A DNA stretch of 59,303 nucleotides from Verrucomicrobiaceae bacterium UBA2429. GTDB lineage: Bacteria > Verrucomicrobiota > Verrucomicrobiia > Verrucomicrobiales > Verrucomicrobiaceae. The position numbers and the translations under genes are program-made. Shown here piece by piece: positions 26,421 to 38,126 of this stretch; position 1 is the first letter of the stretch; every line of letters begins with the position of its first letter. The notes beneath the pieces were generated by a model, which saw nothing but the letters and a program-made list of their open reading frames with translations, made no database searches and had not been told where the DNA came from. The stretch is taken from assembly GCA_002343505.1 (NCBI GenBank), contig DDQZ01000070.1:250423-309725 (forward strand), read 5' to 3'.

Positions 26421-27239
26421 ATGCGGATCGGCGTGGTGGCCCCGGCGGGGCGCCTGCAGCGGGAAACGGCCGAGCGGTTCGTCGCCTTCGCGTCCGCGCG
26501 GCGGCCGGACGTGACGATCGACCTCCACCCGCAATGCTATCTCAGCCACGGCCATTTCGCCGGGACGGACGAAGAAAGGCTGGAGGCGTTTGTCGCCTTC
26601 GCCAACGATCCGGCTTTCGACGCCATCTGGTTCGCGCGTGGGGGCTATGGCTCGAACCGGATCGCGGCGGCGGCGGTCGAACGGCTGAACAAGCACGCCC
26701 GGGACAAGACCTATCTCGGCTATAGCGATCTCGGCTACATGCTCGCCGCCCTCTACAAGGCCGGCTTCCCGCACGTCGCGCACGGGCCGATGCCGCAGGG
26801 GATCAGCCATGATGATGGCGCGGAAGCGGTGGCGCGCGGGCTGGGCTGGCTGGCGGACCGCGACACGGCGTGCGTGGAGCCGAGCCTTGAGCCGGGGGTG
26901 CCCGTGGCCGCCTTCAACCTGACCGTGCTCGGCACCCTGCTCGGCACCCAGCTGGAGCCGGACCTCGCGGGCCATGTGCTGATGATCGAGGATGTCGGCG
27001 AGATGGCCTACCGGATCGACCGGGCGATGTCGCATTTGACCGGCCAACCCAGCATGCGGCGCCTTCGCGGCATCCGCGCCGGGCGGTTCGATCCGGTGCC
27101 GGACAACGATCCGCCCTTCGGCGAGACCCCCGTGGAGATCGTGCAGGCCTGGTGCGACAGCGCCGGCATCCCCTTTCTCGGCACGGCCGACATCGGCCAC
27201 GATGCGGCGAACAAGGTGGTGCCGTTCGGGACGCCCTAA
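26421..27239 (+). CDS. ldcA: LD-carboxypeptidase (peptidoglycan tetrapeptide recycling)
   Basis: A 272-aa S66-family serine peptidase: MRIGVVAPAGRL, the FARGGYGSNRI and YLGYSDLGYMLAALYKAGFPHVAHGPM segments with the nucleophile serine in YSDLG, the glutamate in HVLMIEDVGE and the histidine near the C-terminus in TADIGHDAANKVVPFG. It removes the terminal D-Ala from recycled tetrapeptides in the cytoplasm; no signal peptide is present. The start at 26421 follows GGGGCGAGGA; 26409 would add 4 residues. The divergent ligase gene is the probable next enzyme in the pathway. Confidence 0.87.
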   Translation: MRIGVVAPAGRLQRETAERFVAFASARRPDVTIDLHPQCYLSHGHFAGTDEERLEAFVAFANDPAFDAIWFARGGYGSNRIAAAAVERLNKHARDKTYLGYSDLGYMLAALYKAGFPHVAHGPMPQGISHDDGAEAVARGLGWLADRDTACVEPSLEPGVPVAAFNLTVLGTLLGTQLEPDLAGHVLMIEDVGEMAYRIDRAMSHLTGQPSMRRLRGIRAGRFDPVPDNDPPFGETPVEIVQAWCDSAGIPFLGTADIGHDAANKVVPFGTP

Positions 27240-27352
27240 AGCCGGGTTTACTTCAACTCGGCGCGCGCCTGTGGAAACCTTAGTGTAATGGACTTGCAAA
27301 CTGATTGGCGTTGGTTCAATCCCAAGCCCTGTTTCAAAGGGAGGATTATTTC

Positions 27353-27601
27353 ATGGCGCAACAAAGCGGTCTGCAACGTCCGGTCACCCCGTCCGCCGAT
27401 CTGGCGGCGATCACCGGCAGCGATCCGTTGCCGCGCAGCCAGGTCGTCAAGAAGGTGTGGGATCACATCAAGGCGAACAATCTGCAGAATCCGGCGAACA
27501 AGCGCGAGATCCTCGCGGACGACAAGCTGAAGAAGATTTTCGGCAAGGACAAAGTGTCCATGTTCGAAATGAACAAGCATATCTCCGCCCACGTGAAGTA
27601 A
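27353..27601 (+). CDS. SWIB/MDM2 domain protein
   Basis: An 82-aa protein that is almost entirely a SWIB domain (SADLAAITGSDPLPRSQVVKKVWDHIKANNLQNPANKREILADDKLKKIFGKDKVSMFEMNKHISAHVK), a fold also found in eukaryotic chromatin remodellers and in chlamydiae. The bacterial role is unknown; DNA or topoisomerase association has been suggested for some fusions. AAGGGAGGA precedes the ATG. The Tn7-like transposon begins 27 bp after its stop codon, and the coding sequence is intact. Confidence 0.9.
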   Translation: MAQQSGLQRPVTPSADLAAITGSDPLPRSQVVKKVWDHIKANNLQNPANKREILADDKLKKIFGKDKVSMFEMNKHISAHVK

Positions 27602-27623
27602 GCGGCACAGCCGATTACTTCAG

Positions 27624-27628
27624 GCGGC
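27624..27628. repeat. Left copy of the 5-bp target-site duplication (GCGGC)
   Basis: GCGGC directly before the transposon left end; an identical GCGGC directly follows the right end at 35262-35266. Five-bp duplications are the rule for Tn7-like elements. Confidence 0.9.
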
Positions 27629-27747
27629 TGTGGGGGCGGGCATAAGTTGTCCCGCGACACCCCATAAGTTGTCCCGCGGGATGGCATAATTTGTCCCGGT
27701 TACGGCCGGCTGTTCATAGGGGCGGCCGGTCCGAGCCGGGACAAATT
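27629..27747. repeat. Left-end array of putative TnsB-binding sites
   Basis: The motif GGCATAA(G/T)TTGTCCCGC occurs in the terminal repeat (27629-27655) and again as CATAAGTTGTCCCGC (27663-27677) and GGCATAATTTGTCCCG (27683-27698), all in one orientation. A partial inverted copy, CGGGACAAATT, is at 27737-27747. Spacing of the first three is about 22 bp. Confidence 0.8.
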
Positions 27748-27770
27748 CCCTTTTCAGGATCTTCATGATT

Positions 27771-27789
27771 TTGGGCTTTTCGAGCCCAA
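27771..27789 (-). terminator. Hairpin after tniQ
   Basis: TTGGGCT/AGCCCAA with a 5-nt loop lies immediately downstream of the tniQ stop. There is no strong T-run on the minus strand, so termination is only suggested. Confidence 0.4.
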
Positions 27790-27791
27790 GT

Positions 27792-29858
27792 TCATCGGAC
27801 CCCGGCTTTCAGGGGATATTGACTGATATTGTTAGCGCGTAGCTGTCTCAGCACCGCGTCAACGCCTGCGATCCCGGTCGGCCCAAACATCGCTTCCGCC
27901 TCGCGAAGGCAGTCGGCCGCCGCGTTCCGATAGCGGATCTTGTCGGCCGCCTCGTCGAGCCTCTCCTCGAAGCGGATCGCCCCGCTGCTCCGCATCTTGG
28001 TCACCCCTTTCATGAACTCGCGCCGCCGTCGGTTGCCCCAGAGATCGTTGAGGAGGCTGGCGACCGTGTTGGTGGCCATGAAACTGTCCTTACTCGCGAC
28101 GTGACGCACGCGCGCAGCGACCGCGAGGCCCTTCACTGCATGCCTCGGGATCCTCAGGTCGGCCAGCGTTGGCGCCGCCACAGTGGTGACGGCGGGAACC
28201 TCGCCGGAGAGGATGTCCACGATCAGGTCCGAGGCGGTGTAGAGGATGCTGACGGTGGTCTGTGCCACGTCTCCGTAGCGCTCGAATTTCTCGGGGATGC
28301 GCGAGGGCACCACCCTCCGCACCGCCTTCGCCAGCCTGACCTGCATGTCGATGATGTCGGTGATCGCGAAGACGTCGCCCTTGGACCGGCCGTGGGCCGT
28401 GCTCTCGATCCTGACGGGCTGGAGGAGCCGGGGGTCGTTCCACACGGCGCCGCCGGTCCGCCGCTCGCGGCTGCAGAGCGTCTCAGCCACCACGCACAGC
28501 GACGCGTGCCGGTCGACCACCTCCATGAACTGCCGCGTGCGGGTGAGGAGAGCCTCGGCCAGCTGCTCGTCGGCCATCGTGCCGATGTCCTCTGCATCGA
28601 GCTCCGCGATGGCCTGATGATAGCTGCGTCTGAGGCCGGGGCCGACCCTCTCGCCGAGGATGCCGGCAATCACTCCGAGCGGCAGGACCCCGAGCAGCCT
28701 CCTGGCCACCCGGCTTGTCCGCGCCACGATCTTCGGTCGCAGCCGGTAACCTCGCCGTTCAAGCCACCGCCTGGTCTCGTCCGTGAGGACGGTCATGGGG
28801 TAGCCGTCGACCCCGATATGCGGGTCGAGCATCAACCGGCCCATCTCCGTGGCGAAGAGATCGGCGGGCGTGGTGTCACCGGCCACCGCATTTCTTCCGG
28901 CCACCTCGTCGAGCAGCGTGTGCCAGGCGTCGGGCCACCCTCTCAACACTCGCATTGCCGCCTCGACGCTGGCGATCGTCCTGCCGATGGCCAGCGTGTC
29001 GTTAGCGCGGCCGGTGGTCGCGAACGTGCGGCTGGTGCGCGCGAGGTCCTCCGAGGCTGGCGTGGTCGCCACGCGGCCGATGAGTTCGAGGATGGCGACA
29101 GCGTCCATGACGTGCATCGGAACGGTCTGGGGAAGTGGGGGCCTGTTCCGCGGCAGATCGAGATCGTCCAGGTTGATGGATGCCGGATCCGGCGCAACCG
29201 TGCGGCTGAGCCCGTCGAAGGGCGCGTCCAGCTGAGGCCCCTCCAGCCACAGTCTCGGTGTGGTGGCGGTCAGCCGCGGACCGAGTAGCTGGACCAGCCA
29301 GCGCGTCGTCGCTAGGGCCGCTTCCGAGGCGGGTCTGGTGCTGATCCGGCTGAAGGACTTTCCGCAGGGACAGCAGTCGGGCAGGGGCTCGCGGCCCGGA
29401 CCTCGCCTGACGAGGTGCACCGGCCGCGAGCAGTCGCACCTATCGACGAGGTATGTGCCGTGCTCGACGCAAGCGACCCAGTGGATGAGCTTCCACGCCT
29501 CCCGCATCGTGCCGCCCTCCGCGAGACAGAGGGGACAGAGGCGTAGCTGGTCCAGGCTCAGGTAGGATCGCCTCACGACTGTGCCCAGAAACGTGACTTG
29601 GTTGCGCTGCCGCCGGCCTGGCACTGGCCTGCACCGCATTCCGTCCAGCTCATCGACATGCACGAGGGCGAAGTCCGCCAGCCTCTGCCACTGGGCGTCG
29701 TCCCAATGGTCCGGGTTGTGCCTCCCGCCTGCGATGTGCTCGAACAGCCACGGATACGAGAGGCCGTTGATGTCGGCGAGCCGCATCATGAACCCCACCG
29801 CCGACTCTCCCGCGAGGGGGCTGGAAACGATCGGCAGCGCGTGCACCGGCTTCTTCAC
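27792..29858 (-). CDS. tniQ: TniQ/TnsD-family target-selection protein
   Basis: A 688-aa protein. The N-terminal TniQ domain is clear: HALPIVSSPLAGESAVGFMMRLADINGLSYPWL, then paired zinc-finger motifs LRLCPLCLAEGGTMREAWKLIHWVACVEHGTYLVDRCDC and CCPCGKSF. The remaining 450 residues are long enough for the DNA-binding extension found in TnsD-type homing proteins; short TniQ proteins of about 300-400 aa lack it. It would choose the insertion site and recruit the ATPase. Start GTG overlaps the tnsC stop by 4 bp, with GGCTGGAAGCC acting as ribosome-binding region. Confidence 0.88.
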   Translation of the reverse strand: MKKPVHALPIVSSPLAGESAVGFMMRLADINGLSYPWLFEHIAGGRHNPDHWDDAQWQRLADFALVHVDELDGMRCRPVPGRRQRNQVTFLGTVVRRSYLSLDQLRLCPLCLAEGGTMREAWKLIHWVACVEHGTYLVDRCDCSRPVHLVRRGPGREPLPDCCPCGKSFSRISTRPASEAALATTRWLVQLLGPRLTATTPRLWLEGPQLDAPFDGLSRTVAPDPASINLDDLDLPRNRPPLPQTVPMHVMDAVAILELIGRVATTPASEDLARTSRTFATTGRANDTLAIGRTIASVEAAMRVLRGWPDAWHTLLDEVAGRNAVAGDTTPADLFATEMGRLMLDPHIGVDGYPMTVLTDETRRWLERRGYRLRPKIVARTSRVARRLLGVLPLGVIAGILGERVGPGLRRSYHQAIAELDAEDIGTMADEQLAEALLTRTRQFMEVVDRHASLCVVAETLCSRERRTGGAVWNDPRLLQPVRIESTAHGRSKGDVFAITDIIDMQVRLAKAVRRVVPSRIPEKFERYGDVAQTTVSILYTASDLIVDILSGEVPAVTTVAAPTLADLRIPRHAVKGLAVAARVRHVASKDSFMATNTVASLLNDLWGNRRRREFMKGVTKMRSSGAIRFEERLDEAADKIRYRNAAADCLREAEAMFGPTGIAGVDAVLRQLRANNISQYPLKAGVR

Positions 29859-31024
29859 GGCTTCCAGCCGCGCTTGCCCGAGACCTTGTTCCTCGCCACG
29901 GGTTCGGGCGGCGCGAACGGGTTCTCGACGATTCTACGTTCCTCGCCTTCCGCCTCGGCGCTCATCAGGTGGGATTCCAGGACGCCCCGCTTCAGCTCCA
30001 CCGCAGCATGGAGGTGGTGCTCGCGAATCCGGTCTGAGCCGTCCTCAATGGCGAGGTCGGCGGCCTTGACGACGATGATGCCGAGCTGTCGCAGCAGCCC
30101 GAAGGTCGCGAAGTGCAGCTTCTCGGCCAGGGAAGGCTCATCGAGTCCGGCGTGCTCGTCGAAGGGCAGCTCGTCGTCGATGTCGGCGAGCAGGGCCCGG
30201 AACGTCTCCTTCTCCTCGTCGCTTCCATATCGGTATCGATCCACCTTGATCCGGTAGGGGGTGATGCTGGCGAGCTCGTCGTTCAAAGAGGGATCGACGA
30301 TGAGTTCGACCTTCTTGGTGCCGATCAGGACGAAGACGATCGTCTCCGCCAGTTCGCCATCGGGCTTGGCGGCGCTACGGGACTTGGACTTGGCGAAGTC
30401 GCGGACCCAGTTGGCGATGCGGTTGAGCCGGTCCGTGCCGTTGTCGCTGACCGTGTTGTGGAATTCGTCGAGCATCGCCAGCACGACCCCCTGGGCCATC
30501 ATCTGCGTCTTCACGCGGCGGGTGATCTCGGGAACGCCGAGCGACTTCACGCTGTTGACGAGCTTGTCGATATCCACGAGCGGTTCGCCGTTCAGCGTCA
30601 TCAGCTGGACCAGCATCGCCTGTGCCACCGCCTTGGGCGTGGAGCAGTTGCGCACGTCGACGTAGAGGACCGGCCGGACCACGCAGCGGGTGTCAGGGTC
30701 GCGACCCTCGGGGTGCGCGGCCAGGATGCGCTTCATGATCTCGGACTTGCCTACGCCGGTCTCCCCGGTGATGATTACGTTCTGAGCCTCGGCGTGCAGG
30801 TGTCGGTCGCGTACTGCCGACTTGACCACGCTAACGATGCGCTCCTCGATGTCGCGGGCGATGAACAGGTGGCGCAGGGCCTGCCGCCGCACCTTGTCCG
30901 GCGCAACCGCCCACGGCAGTTCGTCATCGGCAGTGGCTTCGCTGCCGGCGTATCCGTCCTGTTCGATGGTCGCCCGGGCATCGCCGCCCGTCTCGCGCTT
31001 CCTGGCCGACATGCGACAGTTCAC
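29855..31024 (-). CDS. tnsC: TnsC/TniB-like AAA+ transposition ATPase
   Basis: A 389-aa AAA+ ATPase: Walker A GETGVGKS at residues 87-94, Walker B VLAMLDEFHN at 181-190, then FVLIGTKKVELIVDPSLNDELASITPYRIKVDRY with sensor-like positions. In Tn7-like elements this protein links the target selector to the transposase and enforces target immunity. GTG start at 31024 overlaps the tnsB stop; an ATG at 31012 is possible. The C-terminus reads KRGWKP, the same last four residues as TnsB. Confidence 0.9.
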   Translation of the reverse strand: MNCRMSARKRETGGDARATIEQDGYAGSEATADDELPWAVAPDKVRRQALRHLFIARDIEERIVSVVKSAVRDRHLHAEAQNVIITGETGVGKSEIMKRILAAHPEGRDPDTRCVVRPVLYVDVRNCSTPKAVAQAMLVQLMTLNGEPLVDIDKLVNSVKSLGVPEITRRVKTQMMAQGVVLAMLDEFHNTVSDNGTDRLNRIANWVRDFAKSKSRSAAKPDGELAETIVFVLIGTKKVELIVDPSLNDELASITPYRIKVDRYRYGSDEEKETFRALLADIDDELPFDEHAGLDEPSLAEKLHFATFGLLRQLGIIVVKAADLAIEDGSDRIREHHLHAAVELKRGVLESHLMSAEAEGEERRIVENPFAPPEPVARNKVSGKRGWKP

Positions 31025-33183
31025 GGCTTCCAGCCCTTCTTCTTGCGCGGAGGCCGGGGCGGGGAGGAGCCACCCTCCGTCTCGTTTGTGGTGGTCGGCG
31101 CGCGCCCGTCCTCGGCCTCCGCTCCGACTAGGTGGAGGCGCGCCTTCTTGGCGACGGGTGTGTCCATGTCGTTCGAGGCCGTGGGCTTCGATTTCCAGGC
31201 CGCCTTGTGCGCCTCGGTCCCTGGCACGGTGTTGCGGGCGTCATTGCCTGCGGGAGCCACGCGTCCGACACCATCGAGGCGGGCGATCTGGGAGCTCGCG
31301 CGGATGCTGCGCCGCTTGCCGAGCGCGGAGCCGCGCATGATCGCGACCAAGTCCAGCTTGGCCTTGAGGAGCGCCTCGACGTCGGTGGACGCGTCGGCGC
31401 GGATGAATTCGCGGATCCGCCGGTGGTGCCACAGCGACAGGCCGCGGGCGTATTCGCGCCACTTCGGGGCGACGGGGACCGGGATCACGCGGTCGCTCTC
31501 GTGCGGCATTCTGACGTGGATCATGTCGATGCAGGCGGGGTCGGTGTGGAATTCCAGCTTGCCGCCCTGCTTGGCGAGGGCCTTCTGGAAGGCCGGCAGG
31601 CGCTGTACCTGGAGCAGCTCCGGGGAAAAGTACTGCATGCTGTGGGCGTTGATGCCGAACCGACCGGGCCTGGCGTGATCCGTTCGTCCGAAGAGATGGG
31701 CGACGTCGTCGATGTGGCTGATGATGTCGACCGGATCCTTGTCGGTCTTCTCCCTCCAGACCTTGATCGGCTGGCGGCCGTTAAGCCCTCGGTGGCCGGT
31801 ATAGGGGTAGATGTCGATGAAGAACTTGTGCAGCCCGTAGTCAAGGTCGTCCGGCGTGCAGACGGCGTCCTTCTGGGAATCGTAGCCCATCCGGACCAGC
31901 GTGTTGTGGAAGGTCGTGCCCTTCGTCGGGTGGAGCACCTTGCGGGTGATGGTGCCGATGACCTTCTCGACGGCGCCCTTCAGCCAAGGCTTCTTGCCGG
32001 CCATGATCTCGACGCGGTTGATGCCGATGCGCATGGCGAAGCGGGCGAGATGCTCGGCGATGTTCTCGCGCGCTCGGTCCACGGCCAGGGCGCGGGGCAC
32101 GCCGCCGGTCTCCGGCTCGCGGTCGATGACCCAGCCGCGTTCCTTCTTGAGCTCGTCGAGGTAGATCTTGGGCAGGATCGCATTGCGCAGCGCCTGCATC
32201 AGCGCGAGCGTGCTGGGTGGCTCGAAGGTCACGAACCAGCCAAGGACCATGCGGGTGCAGCGGTCCAGCACCACGACGAGCCACGGCCGTCCGATCGGCA
32301 GCAGGGTCTCGGGATCCACGACGAACAGGTCCATCCGGGTCGCGTCGAGCTCCACCCTGTCGAGCGGCGCTTCCGGGTCCGCCTGGGCCTCGGCCGAGCC
32401 ATAGCGGAGGAACGCGGCCATCTCGCCATAGCGGGCGCGCAGGACGGTGTCCTTGGGGATGGCGTCGATGGATGACTGGATCGCGGCCAGCCCGGGGGCC
32501 GCCAGGACCTTCTCGCCCTTGGCCAACCGCTCGGCGTTGAACCCCTTCATCCTGCCGGCGATTCGGTCCTTGAGGTCGTCGATCGTGATCGGCGGACGGA
32601 CAAGGTAGTGCTCGTCGACCATCTCCCCGATCAGCTGTCGGAGTGCCGCGTCGATGCGGTCCTCGTAGTTACCCTTGTGCCGGTGCCTGGAGATCAGCTT
32701 CTCGAGGTTAGGCGGATCGCCAGCGGCTGCGACCCAGCGGCGTGCGGATTTGAGCGTGGGCTTCGCGACCGTCTCGTGCGTGCGATTGCGCAGGCGCTTC
32801 CAGGTGCGGCCCTGGTCCTCGTAGGTGGCGTCGATGACGTCCTGCCAGTCTTGGGGCGTTTTGCCCTCTCCGGGGATGCCCTTCTCCGCCAGCGCCAGCA
32901 CGTAGATCAGCTTGCGTCGCGCCTCCTCGACATCGAGGTCTGTGGCCTTGCGCTGGCCGTGGACGCGGGAGGCGTTCCCATCCTTGGGCGGCCGCCCGAT
33001 CCCGCTGAAGAACCTGGCCTTCCCCGTGGCGATCTGCCTCTGCAGCTCGGCGTCGGTCCAGACCATGTGCACGAGGGTGGCACGGCAGCGCCATTCCATG
33101 GTGCGCCCCTGGCGGCGCTCCAGGTGGTAGCGGTGGCCATGATAGTCGACCCACGCGCCATCGACGGCCCTGACCGCGGTCAC
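31021..33183 (-). CDS. tnsB: TnsB/TniA-like DDE transposase
   Basis: A 720-aa retroviral-integrase-fold transposase. The catalytic residues are visible: Asp280 in VELDATRMD, Asp369 in ALAVDRARENIA and Glu406 in KGAVEKVIGTI. The core is preceded by about 250 residues of helix-turn-helix regions and followed by a beta-barrel part and a basic, disordered tail ending PPRKKKGWKP. It would bind the end repeats and join the 3' ends to target DNA. GTG start overlaps the tnsA stop (GTGA at 33180-33183). Length fits TnsB. Confidence 0.92.
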   Translation of the reverse strand: MTAVRAVDGAWVDYHGHRYHLERRQGRTMEWRCRATLVHMVWTDAELQRQIATGKARFFSGIGRPPKDGNASRVHGQRKATDLDVEEARRKLIYVLALAEKGIPGEGKTPQDWQDVIDATYEDQGRTWKRLRNRTHETVAKPTLKSARRWVAAAGDPPNLEKLISRHRHKGNYEDRIDAALRQLIGEMVDEHYLVRPPITIDDLKDRIAGRMKGFNAERLAKGEKVLAAPGLAAIQSSIDAIPKDTVLRARYGEMAAFLRYGSAEAQADPEAPLDRVELDATRMDLFVVDPETLLPIGRPWLVVVLDRCTRMVLGWFVTFEPPSTLALMQALRNAILPKIYLDELKKERGWVIDREPETGGVPRALAVDRARENIAEHLARFAMRIGINRVEIMAGKKPWLKGAVEKVIGTITRKVLHPTKGTTFHNTLVRMGYDSQKDAVCTPDDLDYGLHKFFIDIYPYTGHRGLNGRQPIKVWREKTDKDPVDIISHIDDVAHLFGRTDHARPGRFGINAHSMQYFSPELLQVQRLPAFQKALAKQGGKLEFHTDPACIDMIHVRMPHESDRVIPVPVAPKWREYARGLSLWHHRRIREFIRADASTDVEALLKAKLDLVAIMRGSALGKRRSIRASSQIARLDGVGRVAPAGNDARNTVPGTEAHKAAWKSKPTASNDMDTPVAKKARLHLVGAEAEDGRAPTTTNETEGGSSPPRPPRKKKGWKP

Positions 33184-33950
33184 GCAGCTTGCTCCAGGTC
33201 CAGATCCTCGATCGGCCGGCGTCGCGGCAGCAGTGGATCCGGCATTTCCTGGGTGTCAGCGTGCCGGATCAGGCTCCCGCGACCGATGGGCTGGGTGAGG
33301 TCGATGAAGATGCGCCCGTTGGCGGCGAGGGACAGCACCTGCTGGACAGTGGGCGCGTTGTCGTCGCCGGCGAGGTCCGCGACCACATCGGCGATCGTCC
33401 GTTCCCCAGTGCCGAGCACCCGCTCGACCGCGAGGTGCTGCAGCCTGGTGAAGATCGGCCTGTGGCGCCGCCAAAGACACTCGGCGTGGCGGAAGTGAGG
33501 TGCGTCCCGCATCTCCTCGTCGAGCGAGACGAAGTAGGACCAGCCGCGCGCCTCGATCGAGATGCTGGCCGACGCGAGTCGGCGGCGGACCGTGGGATCG
33601 GCATATTTACGCGCGGTCTTGACCTCGTGGAGCACGCTCTCGCCAGCTTCGCGCAGGGCATAGTCGGGGAAGTGCCGGCAGGCTCGACCCTCATGTCCGA
33701 ATCCGATCTCGCAGGGCTGTGCCGCGATCAGCGTGACGTTGGGGTCCATCTCGGCGAGCACGAGGAACAGCGCCAGCTCCGGCCGGGACTCGGCCGGTAG
33801 GTAGCCGGAGGGGTGCTTGTTGGTGCGGTGCCAGCCGTTGTTGATCTGCGAGGATCGGCCAACGACCTTGCGCAGCGGCTGCATCGAGATATCGATCCCG
33901 CCCTTCCATGTGGGATTTCGCGCATCGCACGTCAGAAGTGGCTCGAACAT
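33180..33950 (-). CDS. tnsA: TnsA-like endonuclease subunit of the transposase
   Basis: A 256-aa protein with a restriction-endonuclease-like TnsA core: SRPELALFLVLAEMDPNVTLIAAQPCEIGF, HFPDYAL and VLHEVKTARKYADP, giving catalytic candidates Glu58, Asp96, Glu109 and Lys111. A C-terminal helical part follows (FTRLQHLAVERVLGTGERTIADVVADLAGDDNAPTVQQVLSLAANGRI), as in TnsA. It cuts the 5' ends, so the element should move by cut-and-paste. I chose the ATG at 33950; the frame runs up to 34055, but that part is made of palindromic, AT-richer DNA and is probably untranslated. An ATG at 33962 is also possible. Confidence 0.85.
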   Translation of the reverse strand: MFEPLLTCDARNPTWKGGIDISMQPLRKVVGRSSQINNGWHRTNKHPSGYLPAESRPELALFLVLAEMDPNVTLIAAQPCEIGFGHEGRACRHFPDYALREAGESVLHEVKTARKYADPTVRRRLASASISIEARGWSYFVSLDEEMRDAPHFRHAECLWRRHRPIFTRLQHLAVERVLGTGERTIADVVADLAGDDNAPTVQQVLSLAANGRIFIDLTQPIGRGSLIRHADTQEMPDPLLPRRRPIEDLDLEQAA

Positions 33951-33965
33951 AAAAACGACCATTCC

Positions 33966-34033
33966 TAGTCTATTTGAATAGACTAACTGTGGATCGTTTT
34001 CGAATCGTTCAAGTAGTGCAAATTGCACTACTT
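33966..34033. promoter_or_regulatory. Two long palindromes in front of tnsA
   Basis: TAGTCTAT/ATAGACTA (33966-33985) has 8-bp perfect arms with a TTGA centre. AAGTAGTGCAA/TTGCACTACTT (34011-34033) has 11-bp perfect arms around a single base. On the minus strand TTGAAC just after the second palindrome could be a -35 box for tnsA, with the first palindrome near the -10/start region. They look like operators controlling the transposition operon and perhaps the divergent ORF. Confidence 0.7.
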
Positions 34034-34073
34034 CCCGAGCTGAGACATTCGACAATGCTGGTCGTGAAGTTGC

Positions 34074-34346
34074 ATGTCACTGTCTACCGGTACCAACCGA
34101 CTGCATCCCTCCAACCCCGCGGTCGATGATCTAGCTGCTATTGAACGCATTCACGCCGCAGCGGACCGTCAGCATCTCCTCATTGCTTTCGAACGCGAAG
34201 TAGCGGGTCTATCCCAACCTCAGCCTCCAGCGCGCCGACTAGGTGACGCCAAACTGGATGAACTCCTTCCTCTACCCTCCAACCTCGCTCACGTCTTAGT
34301 TTCCGCGACTGGCGGTGCGGACCGCGTCGCCGAGGATCAGCATTGA
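34074..34346 (+). CDS. Doubtful 90-aa ORF, divergent from tnsA
   Basis: An ATG-started frame of 90 codons (MSLSTGTNRLHPSNPAVDDLAAIERIHAAADRQHLL...), no family recognised. It has no convincing ribosome-binding site, its third codon positions are less GC-biased than those of neighbours, and its last 51 bp are antisense to the end of the next gene. The helical middle part (AAIERIHAAADRQHLLIAFEREVAG) could be a small regulator, but non-coding DNA is equally possible. Confidence 0.35.
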   Translation: MSLSTGTNRLHPSNPAVDDLAAIERIHAAADRQHLLIAFEREVAGLSQPQPPARRLGDAKLDELLPLPSNLAHVLVSATGGADRVAEDQH

Positions 34347-35012
34347 GCTGCCGACGCGGTCGCGCAGCGCAGCCATGTCAATGCGCAGCACCGGCGGCGG
34401 CTCTGCGATTTCGCGGCGGGGGCGGGATCCAGCGAGGGCCAGCGCGCCGACGCGTCCCGACGGCCTGCCACGCCCTTCGCTGCCGAGCGTCGCGTAGGCG
34501 TCAACCTCGACCTCGAGCCAATGCTCGGCCGGCGCGCGCGCAGCTTCGATCCACATGCGTTCCAGCTCGTCCCGGTTGTCGATGACGAACGCGCCGGCCG
34601 CAGCCGGATCAATCAGTGCCCGCTGAAGCTGGAACACGAGCGCCAGCTGCAGGACATCGAGGAGGAGGTAGCGGCGGTGGCCGCGCGGTCCGTTGCCGCC
34701 ATCGGGTCGGTCGTCGGGCACAACACCCTGCCGGAGGGTGTGCTTGAGGCGGGAATCGAATGCCGGCTTCGAGTGCTCCGGTGCCCCAACGAGGTTCATC
34801 AGCAGGGTGCGGACGGAGCCATGGTCAAGGCCCCTGAAGCGGAGATCGACGCCGAGCGCTTGCCGGAGCTGCTGGTCGACCTCCAGCTTCGCCGCCGCGT
34901 TGACGACCGTCCGGCGGATTAGGGTCCTGGCCCGGTCGAACGGCCCGGGATCCGGGCGTGCGTTATCGTCCGCGCCCGGGTCGCCGGGCGCGTGCGTCTT
35001 GTCGTTGGCCAT
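34296..35012 (-). CDS. Transposon cargo protein with a MerR-like helix-turn-helix segment
   Basis: A 238-aa protein, no signal peptide. The ATG at 35012 has AGGAG 7 nt upstream. Residues about 84-140 (AFDSRLKHTLRQGVVPDDRPDGG-(N)GPRGHRRYLLLDVLQLALVFQLQRALIDPAAAG) resemble the second half of a MerR winged helix, where a basic GHRRY motif is followed by a helix. The rest is unrecognised: an Asp/Pro-rich start and a part with HWLEVEVDAYATLG. It is the only clear gene between tnsA and the right end, so it is either cargo or a regulator of the element. Confidence 0.7.
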   Translation of the reverse strand: MANDKTHAPGDPGADDNARPDPGPFDRARTLIRRTVVNAAAKLEVDQQLRQALGVDLRFRGLDHGSVRTLLMNLVGAPEHSKPAFDSRLKHTLRQGVVPDDRPDGGNGPRGHRRYLLLDVLQLALVFQLQRALIDPAAAGAFVIDNRDELERMWIEAARAPAEHWLEVEVDAYATLGSEGRGRPSGRVGALALAGSRPRREIAEPPPVLRIDMAALRDRVGSSMLILGDAVRTASRGN

Positions 35013-35120
35013 GGCCAATCTCCTGTGGTGTAGGGGGGGTGGCGGCGAACGCCGCGGCCAGCCGCTCGTCGGCAGCTTTTCAACTCAGTAATTTAGCTAA
35101 ACTGATAGCTGTTCCGGTCG

Positions 35121-35261
35121 GCGGGACAGATTATGCCATCCGTTTCCATTTAGCTGGGACAACTTTTGGCATTGGTGTGGACAAGTCTTGGTAGGCTTGG
35201 ACGAAGGGATAGGTCAGGGTGCGAGATTCAGCATGCGGGACAAATTATGCCGATCCTCACA
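35121..35261. repeat. Right-end array of putative TnsB-binding sites
   Basis: Three copies of the end motif, inverted relative to the left end: GCGGGACAGATTATGCCA (35121-35138), GCTGGGACAACTTTTGGCA (about 35153-35171) and the terminal repeat beginning GCGGGACAAATTATGCC (35235-35261). The terminal copy ends in CACA, the complement of the left TGTG. Confidence 0.82.
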
Positions 35262-35266
35262 GCGGC
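35262..35266. repeat. Right copy of the 5-bp target-site duplication (GCGGC)
   Basis: Identical to 27624-27628. Removing the element and one copy restores a 33-bp spacer between the SWIB stop and the acetyltransferase start. Confidence 0.9.
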
Positions 35267-35272
35267 GCCGCC

Positions 35273-36091
35273 ATGGACCGGGCGGCGGCGCTGGTCTCTG
35301 AACTGAGGGAATTGGGCGTGAAGCCCGGCGACCTCATCATGGTCCACGCATCACTGCGCAAGCTCGGCCTCGCCTGTTCACAGAATGTGGACGGCGGGGC
35401 CGAATTGCTTGTGGACGCGATCGATGCCGCGGTCGGTCCGGATGGCAGCTGGATGATGGTGCTGGGCAGCGAATATGCGCTCGATTGGGTGAATTACCGC
35501 CCGGTCGAGGCGCGCGCCGCCTTGCTCGCGGGCACCGAGCCGTTCGACGCCGCGACCGCGCCGGCGATGAAGGATGTCGGCTATCTGGCCGAGGCGTTCC
35601 GGCAGCGGGACGGGACTTTGCTCAGCGCCAATCCCAGCGGGCGGTTCGCGGCGCGAGGGGCGCGGGCCGAGGAATTGCTGCGGGATCAGCCGTGGAACGA
35701 TTATTATGGGCCGGGTTCGCCGCTTGAGAAATTGACCGGCTGGGGCGGCAAGGTGCTCCGCCTCGGCGCGGACCCGGAGACGGTAACCGTCCTGCATTAC
35801 GCCGAATATCTCGCGGATCTGACGGACAAGCGCCGGACGCGCTGGGACTATCTGCTGGCAACGCCGGAGGGGCCGGAGCAGGTCTGGGTCGAGTGCCTGG
35901 ACGATCTGAACGGCATCGCCGACTATGCGGGCGAGGATTATTTCGCGGCGATCGTGAGTGCCTATCTGGCCGAGGGTCGCGGGCAAACCGGCCCGGTCGG
36001 CGCGGCGCAGGCGGAACTGCTCGATGCGGCCGACCTGGTTGAGTTCGGCGCGCGCTGGATGGAGACGAATCTCGCTCCAGCTACCGGCTGA
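35273..36091 (+). CDS. AAC(3)-family aminoglycoside N3-acetyltransferase-like protein
   Basis: A 272-aa member of the antibiotic N-acetyltransferase family: MVHASLRKLGL near the start, NPSGRFAARGARAEELL, YGPGSPLEKL and VLRLGADPETVTVLHYAEYLAD. Enzymes of the family transfer acetyl from acetyl-CoA to the 3-amino group of 2-deoxystreptamine drugs; chromosomal members often act on other substrates, so resistance is not assured. The ATG is 11 bp beyond the transposon end, so the native upstream sequence has been displaced. The same frame is open to a GTG at 35219 inside the transposon. It converges with the TonB receptor gene (11-bp overlap). Confidence 0.85.
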   Translation: MDRAAALVSELRELGVKPGDLIMVHASLRKLGLACSQNVDGGAELLVDAIDAAVGPDGSWMMVLGSEYALDWVNYRPVEARAALLAGTEPFDAATAPAMKDVGYLAEAFRQRDGTLLSANPSGRFAARGARAEELLRDQPWNDYYGPGSPLEKLTGWGGKVLRLGADPETVTVLHYAEYLADLTDKRRTRWDYLLATPEGPEQVWVECLDDLNGIADYAGEDYFAAIVSAYLAEGRGQTGPVGAAQAELLDAADLVEFGARWMETNLAPATG

Positions 36092-38126
36092 AGCTCAGCC
36101 CCAGCCACAAGGTTCGCGGCGTCGCACGTTCGATCAGGCCGTCGGCGCTGATCGCGGACGCGACGCGGGCGTCCGCGAGATTCTCGGCGCGGGCCTCGAT
36201 CGCCAGCCCGCGCGCGACCGGCCAGCGGGCGGTGGCGTCGAGCGTGAAGGCGTGCGGCAGCAGCTGGCGGTTGAGATCGTCCTCATATTGCGCACCGATA
36301 TAGTGCGCGCCGAGCGAGGCGCGGGCGCCATTGTCGCCGGTCCAGGCAACGGTGAGACTGCCGCTGTGGCGCGGAGTCTGCGCCGGGTGCCGACCGTCGA
36401 GCGGCAAAGCCGCGCCGCTCGCCGACACGCGGGCGTCGGCAAAGGCATAGCCGGCGGTCAGCGACCATTGCCCTGACTGCACCGACGCTTCGACCTCCAC
36501 GCCCCGGCTCGACACGGCGTCGAGATTGTCCCGGCGACGATAGGCACCGCCCGCCGCAACGAAGCCGACGCCCGGGAAAGTGCCGGGTCCTGTACCGAGC
36601 GTAACGTTGGCGATCGCACCCTCGATCCGGTTGGCGAAGGCGGTAGCGGCGACACGAAAGGCGCCCTGCCGCCACTCCAGCCCGACCTCGCCGCCGCGCA
36701 GCCGCTCCGGCGCGAGCATTTCGTTCGCGGCGGTCGCGTCTACGCCGACTCGGAAGGGCCGGTACAATTCGTTCAGCGTCGGCAGCCGCCAGCCGAGATA
36801 GGCGGCAAGGCGGGCGGTGACGCCGCCTCCGGCGCGCCAGGCCAGGCCGCCGCGCGCGGTCGGTTCCCAGCCGGAACGGTCAGTGAAGAGCTGCTGCGTG
36901 AGGGCCGCGCCGGTCGCGAGCGTCTCCTCGCGCAAATGGCCGTTGCCGATCCTCCAGCGGTCCAGCCTGCCGCCGCCAGTGAGAGTGAGCGGTCCGCTTT
37001 CCAGCGCCGCCTCCGCGAACAGGCCCGCAGTCAGCGTTTCGCCGCCCGCCCGCCGCCCGCGCGTCGCGGTGCCGCCCTGGAAGGCAAAAAGCTCGCGCGT
37101 CTCGCCGCTCACCCGCCTGACATCGCCGCCGACCCGCAACGAAACCGGCCCGAGCGGCGGACGCAATTCGATCCGGCCGCCCGCGCCGGTCGACGGTACC
37201 TCATATTGCTCGGCCGTGCGGGTCGCGAGCGCGCGGGCGGCGTCCACGGACGCGAAGCTGTTGTAGAAGCTGCGGGTCTGCACATAGGCCAGCGCGGACC
37301 AGGCCCAGCGGCCGCTCCCGACCAGGCGGAGCGAGGCGTCCATGCCATCGGTGCGGATGTCGCTGAAGGCCGTGCCGCGCTCACGTTCGTCATGGAAGAG
37401 CAGGAGATTGGCCTGCAATTCGGTCGCCGCGCCGATCGGAGCGACTCCGCGAAAAGCGACACTGCCCTGCCGGTAAGCCGAGGCCCGGTCGGCGGGACCG
37501 CGCTGGCCCTCGACAATCGGCATGAAACCATCGCCGGAGGCATAGCCGCCGCTGACGGTCAGCGAACCGCCGCCCAGCTCCAGCCCGGCCGTCGCGAAGG
37601 CATCAATGCCGTTGCGGCTCCCACCCGCGAGCGAGGCGCTCAGCGTCCCCAGTTCATCCGGACCCGCGCTCTCCAGTTCGATCGACCCCGCCAGCGCACC
37701 CGGTCCGGCCGCGCCCCCGCCGCCGCCGCGCACCACGCGTACCTGCCCGAGCCGCCGCGGCTCCAGCGCCGGCCAGGCGATCCAGCCGCCGAACGGATCG
37801 GCCTGCGGCACGCCGTCCAGGGTCACCAGCACTCGCGAGGCCGCATTGCCGCCGAGCGCGCGCAGGGTCACGCCCTGACTGGTCGGATTGGCGCTACGTG
37901 CGTCGGAGCGCCGAAAGAGTTGGAAGCCCGGCACGGCGCGCAGCACATTTTCAAGCCGGCTGGAGGGCGAAAGCGCCAGCCGCTCGCGCTCGACAATGGT
38001 GACCGCATAGACCGCCTCGCCAGCCGGCGCCTCCAGCCCGCGACCGGTGACGACGATCTCCGGCGGCCGATCTTCGGCGGCCGGCTGAACGAGCGCGGAT
38101 AGGAAAAGGGCGGCGGTGAAACTCAC
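36081..38126 (-). CDS. TonB-dependent outer-membrane receptor
   Basis: A 681-aa receptor with a short signal region (MSFTAALFLSALVQPAA), a TonB-box-like PPEIVVTG, a plug domain (RLENVLRAVPGFQLFRRSDARSANPTSQGVTLRALGGNAASRVLVTLDGVPQADPFGGW) and a 22-strand-type barrel ending LWLGLSFSR. GTG start preceded by AAGGGG. It imports a chelate or other ligand across the outer membrane using TonB energy. The GGNAASRVLVTLDGVP form of the plug is common among proteobacterial receptors of unknown ligand. No siderophore or cobalamin genes are nearby. Confidence 0.9.
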   Translation of the reverse strand: MSFTAALFLSALVQPAAEDRPPEIVVTGRGLEAPAGEAVYAVTIVERERLALSPSSRLENVLRAVPGFQLFRRSDARSANPTSQGVTLRALGGNAASRVLVTLDGVPQADPFGGWIAWPALEPRRLGQVRVVRGGGGGAAGPGALAGSIELESAGPDELGTLSASLAGGSRNGIDAFATAGLELGGGSLTVSGGYASGDGFMPIVEGQRGPADRASAYRQGSVAFRGVAPIGAATELQANLLLFHDERERGTAFSDIRTDGMDASLRLVGSGRWAWSALAYVQTRSFYNSFASVDAARALATRTAEQYEVPSTGAGGRIELRPPLGPVSLRVGGDVRRVSGETRELFAFQGGTATRGRRAGGETLTAGLFAEAALESGPLTLTGGGRLDRWRIGNGHLREETLATGAALTQQLFTDRSGWEPTARGGLAWRAGGGVTARLAAYLGWRLPTLNELYRPFRVGVDATAANEMLAPERLRGGEVGLEWRQGAFRVAATAFANRIEGAIANVTLGTGPGTFPGVGFVAAGGAYRRRDNLDAVSSRGVEVEASVQSGQWSLTAGYAFADARVSASGAALPLDGRHPAQTPRHSGSLTVAWTGDNGARASLGAHYIGAQYEDDLNRQLLPHAFTLDATARWPVARGLAIEARAENLADARVASAISADGLIERATPRTLWLGLSFSR

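Follow-up and report, generated by a model that had tools for sequence, protein, structure and literature searches.

Tn7 inserts through TnsABC and the selector TnsD at glmS, just past the stop of this conserved gene and in a fixed orientation; at attTn7 TnsD recognizes the coding 3' end, reading DNA from +23 to +58, and no particular sequence is needed at the point of insertion (PMC2918618, in the part available). The attachment sites named for Tn7-like elements in a review table include glmS, yhiN, comM, parE and tRNA genes (PMC11406308, in part), and a survey of 6,549 such elements gives cargo in 96% of them and median lengths of 14 to 29 kb (PMC8649781, in part). Type V-K CRISPR-associated transposons (CASTs) encode a regulator of their own, CvkR (PMC9938897), whose gene adjoins cas12k in the opposite direction. 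Here we describe an element at positions 27629-35261 (7,633 bp) of a 59,303-nucleotide stretch of DNA (the window), filed under Verrucomicrobiaceae bacterium UBA2429. It is a complete, compact, cargo-free Tn7-like transposon of sphingomonads. Taken together, the evidence points, with a probability of roughly 0.8, to a streamlined transposon whose TniQ homes to the 3' end of a SWIB gene and whose fifth gene, orf5, encodes a CvkR-like repressor.

Both ends of the element can be placed to the base. Its 27-bp terminal inverted repeats (TIRs), TGTGGGGGCGGGCATAAGTTGTCCCGC from 27629 at the tniQ-side end (27629-27655, plus strand) and TGTGAGGATCGGCATAATTTGTCCCGC from 35261 on the reverse strand at the orf5-side end (35235-35261), are identical at 22/27 positions, a match reached by 0 of 200,000 random 27-mer pairs drawn from the flanks. 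The target-site duplication GCGGC is exact, with copies at 27624-27628 and 35262-35266. Each end carries an array of three TnsB-type sites, CATAANTTGTCCCG, with a putative role in binding: on the plus strand at 27641, 27663 and 27685 (span 27641-27698), all without mismatch and in 22-bp steps, and on the minus strand at 35236, 35155 and 35122 (span 35122-35249), with 0, 2 and 1 mismatches and steps of 81 and 33. All four exact copies of this site in the window lie inside the element's ends. If up to three mismatches are allowed, the window holds 9 matches, of which the element ends account for 7, a total at chance level (shuffle mean 6.6; at least 9 in 28/100 shuffles), so the weight rests on the exact copies and their clustering.

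Five genes, tniQ, tnsC, tnsB, tnsA and orf5, fill the element, all on the minus strand, and in the assembly that contains the window a DNA search finds it as a single copy. An earlier sequence-only reading of this DNA had set both ends at the same bases, with the 22/27 repeats and the exact GCGGC duplication, and had called the element complete, compact and Tn7-like; the ends, genes, TnsB relatives and tree bear this out. Its "almost no cargo" becomes no cargo, the open reading frame at 34296-35018 being a conserved core gene, and three things had escaped it: the attachment site at SWIB, the conservation of the regulator and the chimeric make-up of the scaffold.

The element lies beside a SWIB/MDM2-domain gene (27305-27601, plus strand, ATG probably at 27353; PF02201, E 2.5e-30), whose 3' end we infer to be the attachment site. 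Exactly 30 bp separate its start from the AAG that closes HVK, the last conserved codons of this gene; measured from the center of the duplication, the end of that AAG falls at +28. Sphingomonas sp. CROZ-RG-20F-R02-07 (L003/L071) carries a second element, 7,609 bp long and likewise cargo-free, in which all five genes recur; its proteins are 79% (TnsA), 80% (TnsB), 82% (TnsC), 63% (TniQ) and 60% (Orf5) identical to those of the window. Its TIRs match at 19/27 positions, the sites of its tniQ-side end stand 44 bp apart and enclose a degenerate one (by eye), and those of its orf5-side end show steps of 82 and 33 with 2-3 mismatches. This element, too, sits 30 bp past a SWIB HVK in the same orientation, the tniQ side facing the SWIB 3' end; one of the two occupied genes stops directly after HVK and the other one codon later. 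Insertion beside SWIB is site- and orientation-specific in 2/2 orf5-bearing elements for which there is DNA. Further orf5-bearing contigs are one of 571,891 bp from S. beigongshangi and those that encode P0002, P0006, P0007, P0012, P0013 and P0018. Between the two loci the SWIB coding ends agree at 70/90 bases, as against 5/30 in the gap that follows. The coding 3' end holds a conserved block, ATGTTCGARATGAACAA, and the coding block ATGTTCGA.ATGAACAA is invariant in all 32 SWIB loci that we read (30 from a host-genus search, with L070 and L071). This geometry, which is of attTn7 type and rests on two elements, makes SWIB 3' ends the most likely homing target of TniQ.

Both occupied SWIB genes (L076 and L071) end their HVK with GTGAAG, and the unoccupied genes listed are mostly of HLS or HLK type; with n=2, this gives no more than a hint as to the sequence that the selector may read.

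The likeness to Tn7 extends to TnsABC with a TniQ/TnsD protein, repeated end sites, a 5-bp duplication and, judging from the available part of PMC2918618, an insertion just past a conserved gene's stop with recognition in the coding 3' end and a fixed orientation. The window element differs in using SWIB rather than glmS, in leaving no gene for TnsE and in having no cargo. The orientation is also different. In Tn7 the tnsA side is proximal to the target gene, whereas here the tniQ side lies next to SWIB.

Element-free relatives show what the site may have looked like before insertion. On the far side of the element lies a chromosomal AAC(3)-family acetyltransferase gene (35273-36091, plus strand; PF02522), which in some of these relatives is the direct neighbor of SWIB. 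SWIB and AAC(3) are adjacent without an element in 5 of the 32 loci (L080, L081, L084, L085 and L102), the loci reaching only ~1.5 kb, which limits the rows in which AAC(3) does not appear. The five AAC(3) genes are 62-74% identical to that of the window, and the aligned gene parts lie 49-145 bp apart. Because these relatives keep the pair without the element, the insertion in the window separated two genes that were already neighbors. The sequence-only reading had looked to an empty site with a single GCGGC; the synteny is there, but a lone GCGGC is not demonstrable because the DNA between SWIB and AAC(3) is unconserved across relatives.

The four transposition genes are full length and their frames are open, as had been read from the sequence. 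tniQ (27792-29858, minus strand), a proposed target selector of TnsD size at 688 aa, matches PF06527 with 55.3 bits against a cut-off of 27. The AAA+ ATPase gene tnsC (29855-31024, minus strand) matches PF05621 (TniB) and PF13401 above cut-off, and its nearest solved chain is the TnsC of Tn6677 (E 2.4e-14). tnsB (31021-33183, minus strand), for a DDE transposase, matches PF00665 below cut-off only and is assigned by its relatives, alignment and tree; D280, D369 and E406, which we take to be the DDE triad, are invariant in 33/33 alignment rows, the window's own included. tnsA (33180-33950, minus strand), for the heteromeric endonuclease, completes the operon order with tnsC and the TniQ/TnsD-type gene; its family matches all fall below curated cut-offs (NF033179 TnsA-like, 56.4 bits; PF08722, 20.6 bits), and a search of PDB sequences gave no match. 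Its longest open reading frame starts at 34055, and the ATG at 33950 is common with the L071 relative. Between the two elements dN/dS is 0.16-0.24 for all five genes (NG86; synonymous distances of 0.7-1.6, near saturation). All five look to be under purifying selection, which is evidence of long-term function only.

The remaining gene, orf5 (34296-35018, minus strand), encodes a conserved 240-aa protein, by prediction of MerR type with the CvkR fold, and is matched only beside TnsB of the window's subclade. The predicted fold matches 138 of the 148 CvkR residues, covering the MerR-type winged helix-turn-helix and the CvkR dimerization arrangement. In an Orf5 profile search, which made no direct comparison with CvkR, the CvkR structure 7xn2 was not among PDB sequence matches up to E 10. 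Upstream of tnsA lies a candidate operator, the perfect palindrome AAGTAGTGCAA-A-TTGCACTACTT (34011-34033), with its core AGTGCA-N3-TGCACT at 34015-34029. This 15-nt core, AGTGCAnnnTGCACT, has a CvkR-like layout and lies 64-79 bp before tnsA in the window and L071 elements, occurring twice in exact form upstream of tnsA in L071. At up to one mismatch it was found, among 13 Tn7-like loci scanned, only at the two that bear orf5, each time upstream of tnsA, and was absent from the other 11; mononucleotide shuffles, 200 per source, contained no exact core. The fold match and the palindrome together make Orf5 a likely CvkR-like repressor, an off-switch of the element. A second inverted repeat, TAGTCTATT-tg-AATAGACTA (33966-33985), stands directly before the tnsA start in the window, with no counterpart listed in L071.

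Orf5 and CvkR are alike in a predicted fold that covers almost the whole chain, in being encoded by the element, and in a 15-nt palindrome with a one-base center near a transposition gene (PMC9938897). They differ in context: the window element has tnsA and no cas12k, and orf5 stands in tandem with tnsA rather than opposed to a cas12k. Orf5 also has ~58 extra N-terminal residues outside the match, and no sequence similarity to CvkR was detected. The CvkR binding motif AnnACATnATGTnnT and the window's AGTGCAnnnTGCACT have a like layout with partly different bases; at CvkR's eight specified inner bases the window core differs at 4 and the two L071 cores at 2 and 4.

A TniQ that homes to SWIB and an Orf5 that represses the operon have rival explanations. 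DNA is at hand for two loci only, and SWIB is present in every host-genus genome searched (26/26, one as a partial match), so that the SWIB neighborhood could be a coincidence of low specificity, or both copies could descend from one ancestral insertion. We consider this very improbable. The duplications differ (GCGGC in the window, GCGCG in L071), as do the distal neighbors (AAC(3) and, in L071, a transporter-like open frame, of the major facilitator superfamily by eye); the SWIB proteins of the two loci are only 67% identical; the 30-bp gaps are unrelated yet of equal length; and the five relatives with the undivided gene pair place the window insertion after the pair.

The roles of TniQ and Orf5 could also be otherwise divided. 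Orf5 has a predicted DNA-binding fold and was matched only beside TnsB of this subclade, and separate selectors are known (PMC10293859, in part), so that it, rather than TniQ, might select the target as a TnsF-like (Tn6022) DNA-binding partner of TniQ, contacting SWIB DNA directly. This is quite unlikely given a TniQ of 688 aa, since partners above 400 aa are read as likely direct selectors, though sizes form a continuum (PMC10293859, in part), and given the repressor-like character of Orf5 and the palindrome of corresponding layout before tnsA. The resemblance to CvkR is structural only and binding is predicted, which leaves room for a different role of this MerR-type regulator, such as in activation or in the control of host genes, and for a host protein at the palindrome. 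We regard that reading as rather unlikely, because the core (at up to one mismatch) occurs, of the 13 Tn7-like loci scanned, only at the two that bear orf5, and in both upstream of tnsA.

The TnsB proteins allow this TniQ- and Orf5-bearing transposon to be placed among known families. Searching with TnsB gave matches to 59 proteins, the window's own included, among the 7,995 scored candidates sharing most words, and there the close matches are all from sphingomonads wherever a source is named. In overlapping genome sets, 24 of 397 genomes of the G697 family matched at E 1e-20, 5 of 295 of its genus at E 1e-40 and, by profile, 5 of 396 of its order at E 1e-60. Beyond the host, whole genomes with at least 47% identity (tblastn) were G697 (80%), G1307 (52%), G1152 (48%) and G1003 (47%) only; further profile matches (L107-L109) are at 29-33%. 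A maximum-likelihood tree of 42 TnsB proteins sets the window's inside a 17-row sphingomonad clade with support 100/100, in agreement with the uncharacterized sphingomonad branch of the sequence-only reading. That reading had also asked whether TnsB might group with Mu or IS21 transposases; MuA stands apart on a long branch of unsure placement, and the tree set holds no IS21/IstA protein.

Among solved proteins, the nearest to this clade by profile score are I-F3 (Tn6677) TnsB proteins: PseTnsAB, which we take to be an I-F3 protein, scores 203 bits and Tn6677 TnsB 155, compared with 72 for another TnsB, presumably the V-K one, and 58 for that of Tn7. Tn7 falls outside the window clade, its placement in the tree, like that of MuA and other long rows, being unsure. 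The best solved match of TnsC is also from Tn6677, and the window TniQ matches I-F TniQ, but at 688 aa it compares with 394-396 in solved Tn6677-type chains, and no Cas effector was found among the family matches of the five genes that fill the element. PADLOC named only TniQ, TniQ_IF and TnsB of CASTs with a mad8 match to TnsC, and Rfam gave no match in 26500-36500. Tn5053-type and Mu transposases share a DDE transposase with an AAA+ partner, but in the tree both fall outside a 23-row set containing the window clade, at a fork of moderate support (96/65). Mu and Tn5053 are not known to have a TnsA.

Sister lineages within the same TnsB clade suggest rnhA as a second candidate attachment site, again at the coding 3' end. 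In L073 a decayed element runs in tniQ-left orientation from 4157 to ~13036, between TGAT...ATCA ends flanked by CTACC (by eye), and its end beyond tnsA abuts the stop of rnhA (RNase HI, named by eye); tnsB contains a stop, and tniQ and tnsA are each matched as two pieces. In L072 an end-like sequence at ~13119 (tniQ-left orientation) abuts the last rnhA codons; the other end of that element was looked for and not found.

The whole window is sphingomonad DNA inside an unrelated metagenome-assembled genome. In a 5.96-Mb assembly, scaffold C12 ends with these 59,303 bases (C12:250423-309725), the tetranucleotide profile switches at ~C12:220-225 kb from that of the rest of the assembly to that of the window, with stretches of N nearby, and a 21,167-bp stretch of the assembly of "Sphingomonadales bacterium UBA2369" is identical to window positions 19858-41024. 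The profile switch and this identity show that the scaffold is chimeric and the host a sphingomonad.

If TnsA, TnsB and TnsC keep the roles of their known families, TnsB would bind the arrays of sites at the two ends and, together with TnsA, cut the element out. The 688-aa TniQ, as a TnsD-type selector, would read the conserved coding sequence at the 3' end of SWIB and recruit TnsC; insertion would follow in a single orientation, 30 bp downstream of the last conserved codon, with a 5-bp duplication and SWIB left intact. Orf5 most likely binds the palindrome before tnsA and would thereby hold down the tnsABC-tniQ operon of an element that may still be active.

Literature searches of partial coverage, with many papers, supplements and preprints outside it and absence correspondingly weak, found no paper linking Tn7-like elements or tnsD to SWIB, no description of this branch for Tn7-like elements, Sphingomonas and tnsB (a genetic-tools review alone), and, for MerR-type regulators in Tn7-like elements, only the CvkR paper and the review PMC11406308 as relevant by title; none joins a SWIB attachment site and such a regulator to a Tn7-like element. 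Given SWIB in all 26 host-genus genomes examined, its 3' ends could be places where DNA is safely inserted into sphingomonads, and a small system of five genes and 7.6 kb would serve this landing site. A CvkR-like repressor without CRISPR would make the origin of CAST regulation testable. As a tentative possibility, SWIB would be an unreported Tn7-type attachment site with a dedicated TniQ lineage, CvkR-type repressors would be a general CRISPR-free control module of Tn7-like transposons, and the regulator of V-K CASTs may be descended from a regulator of protein-guided elements or have a common ancestor with one.

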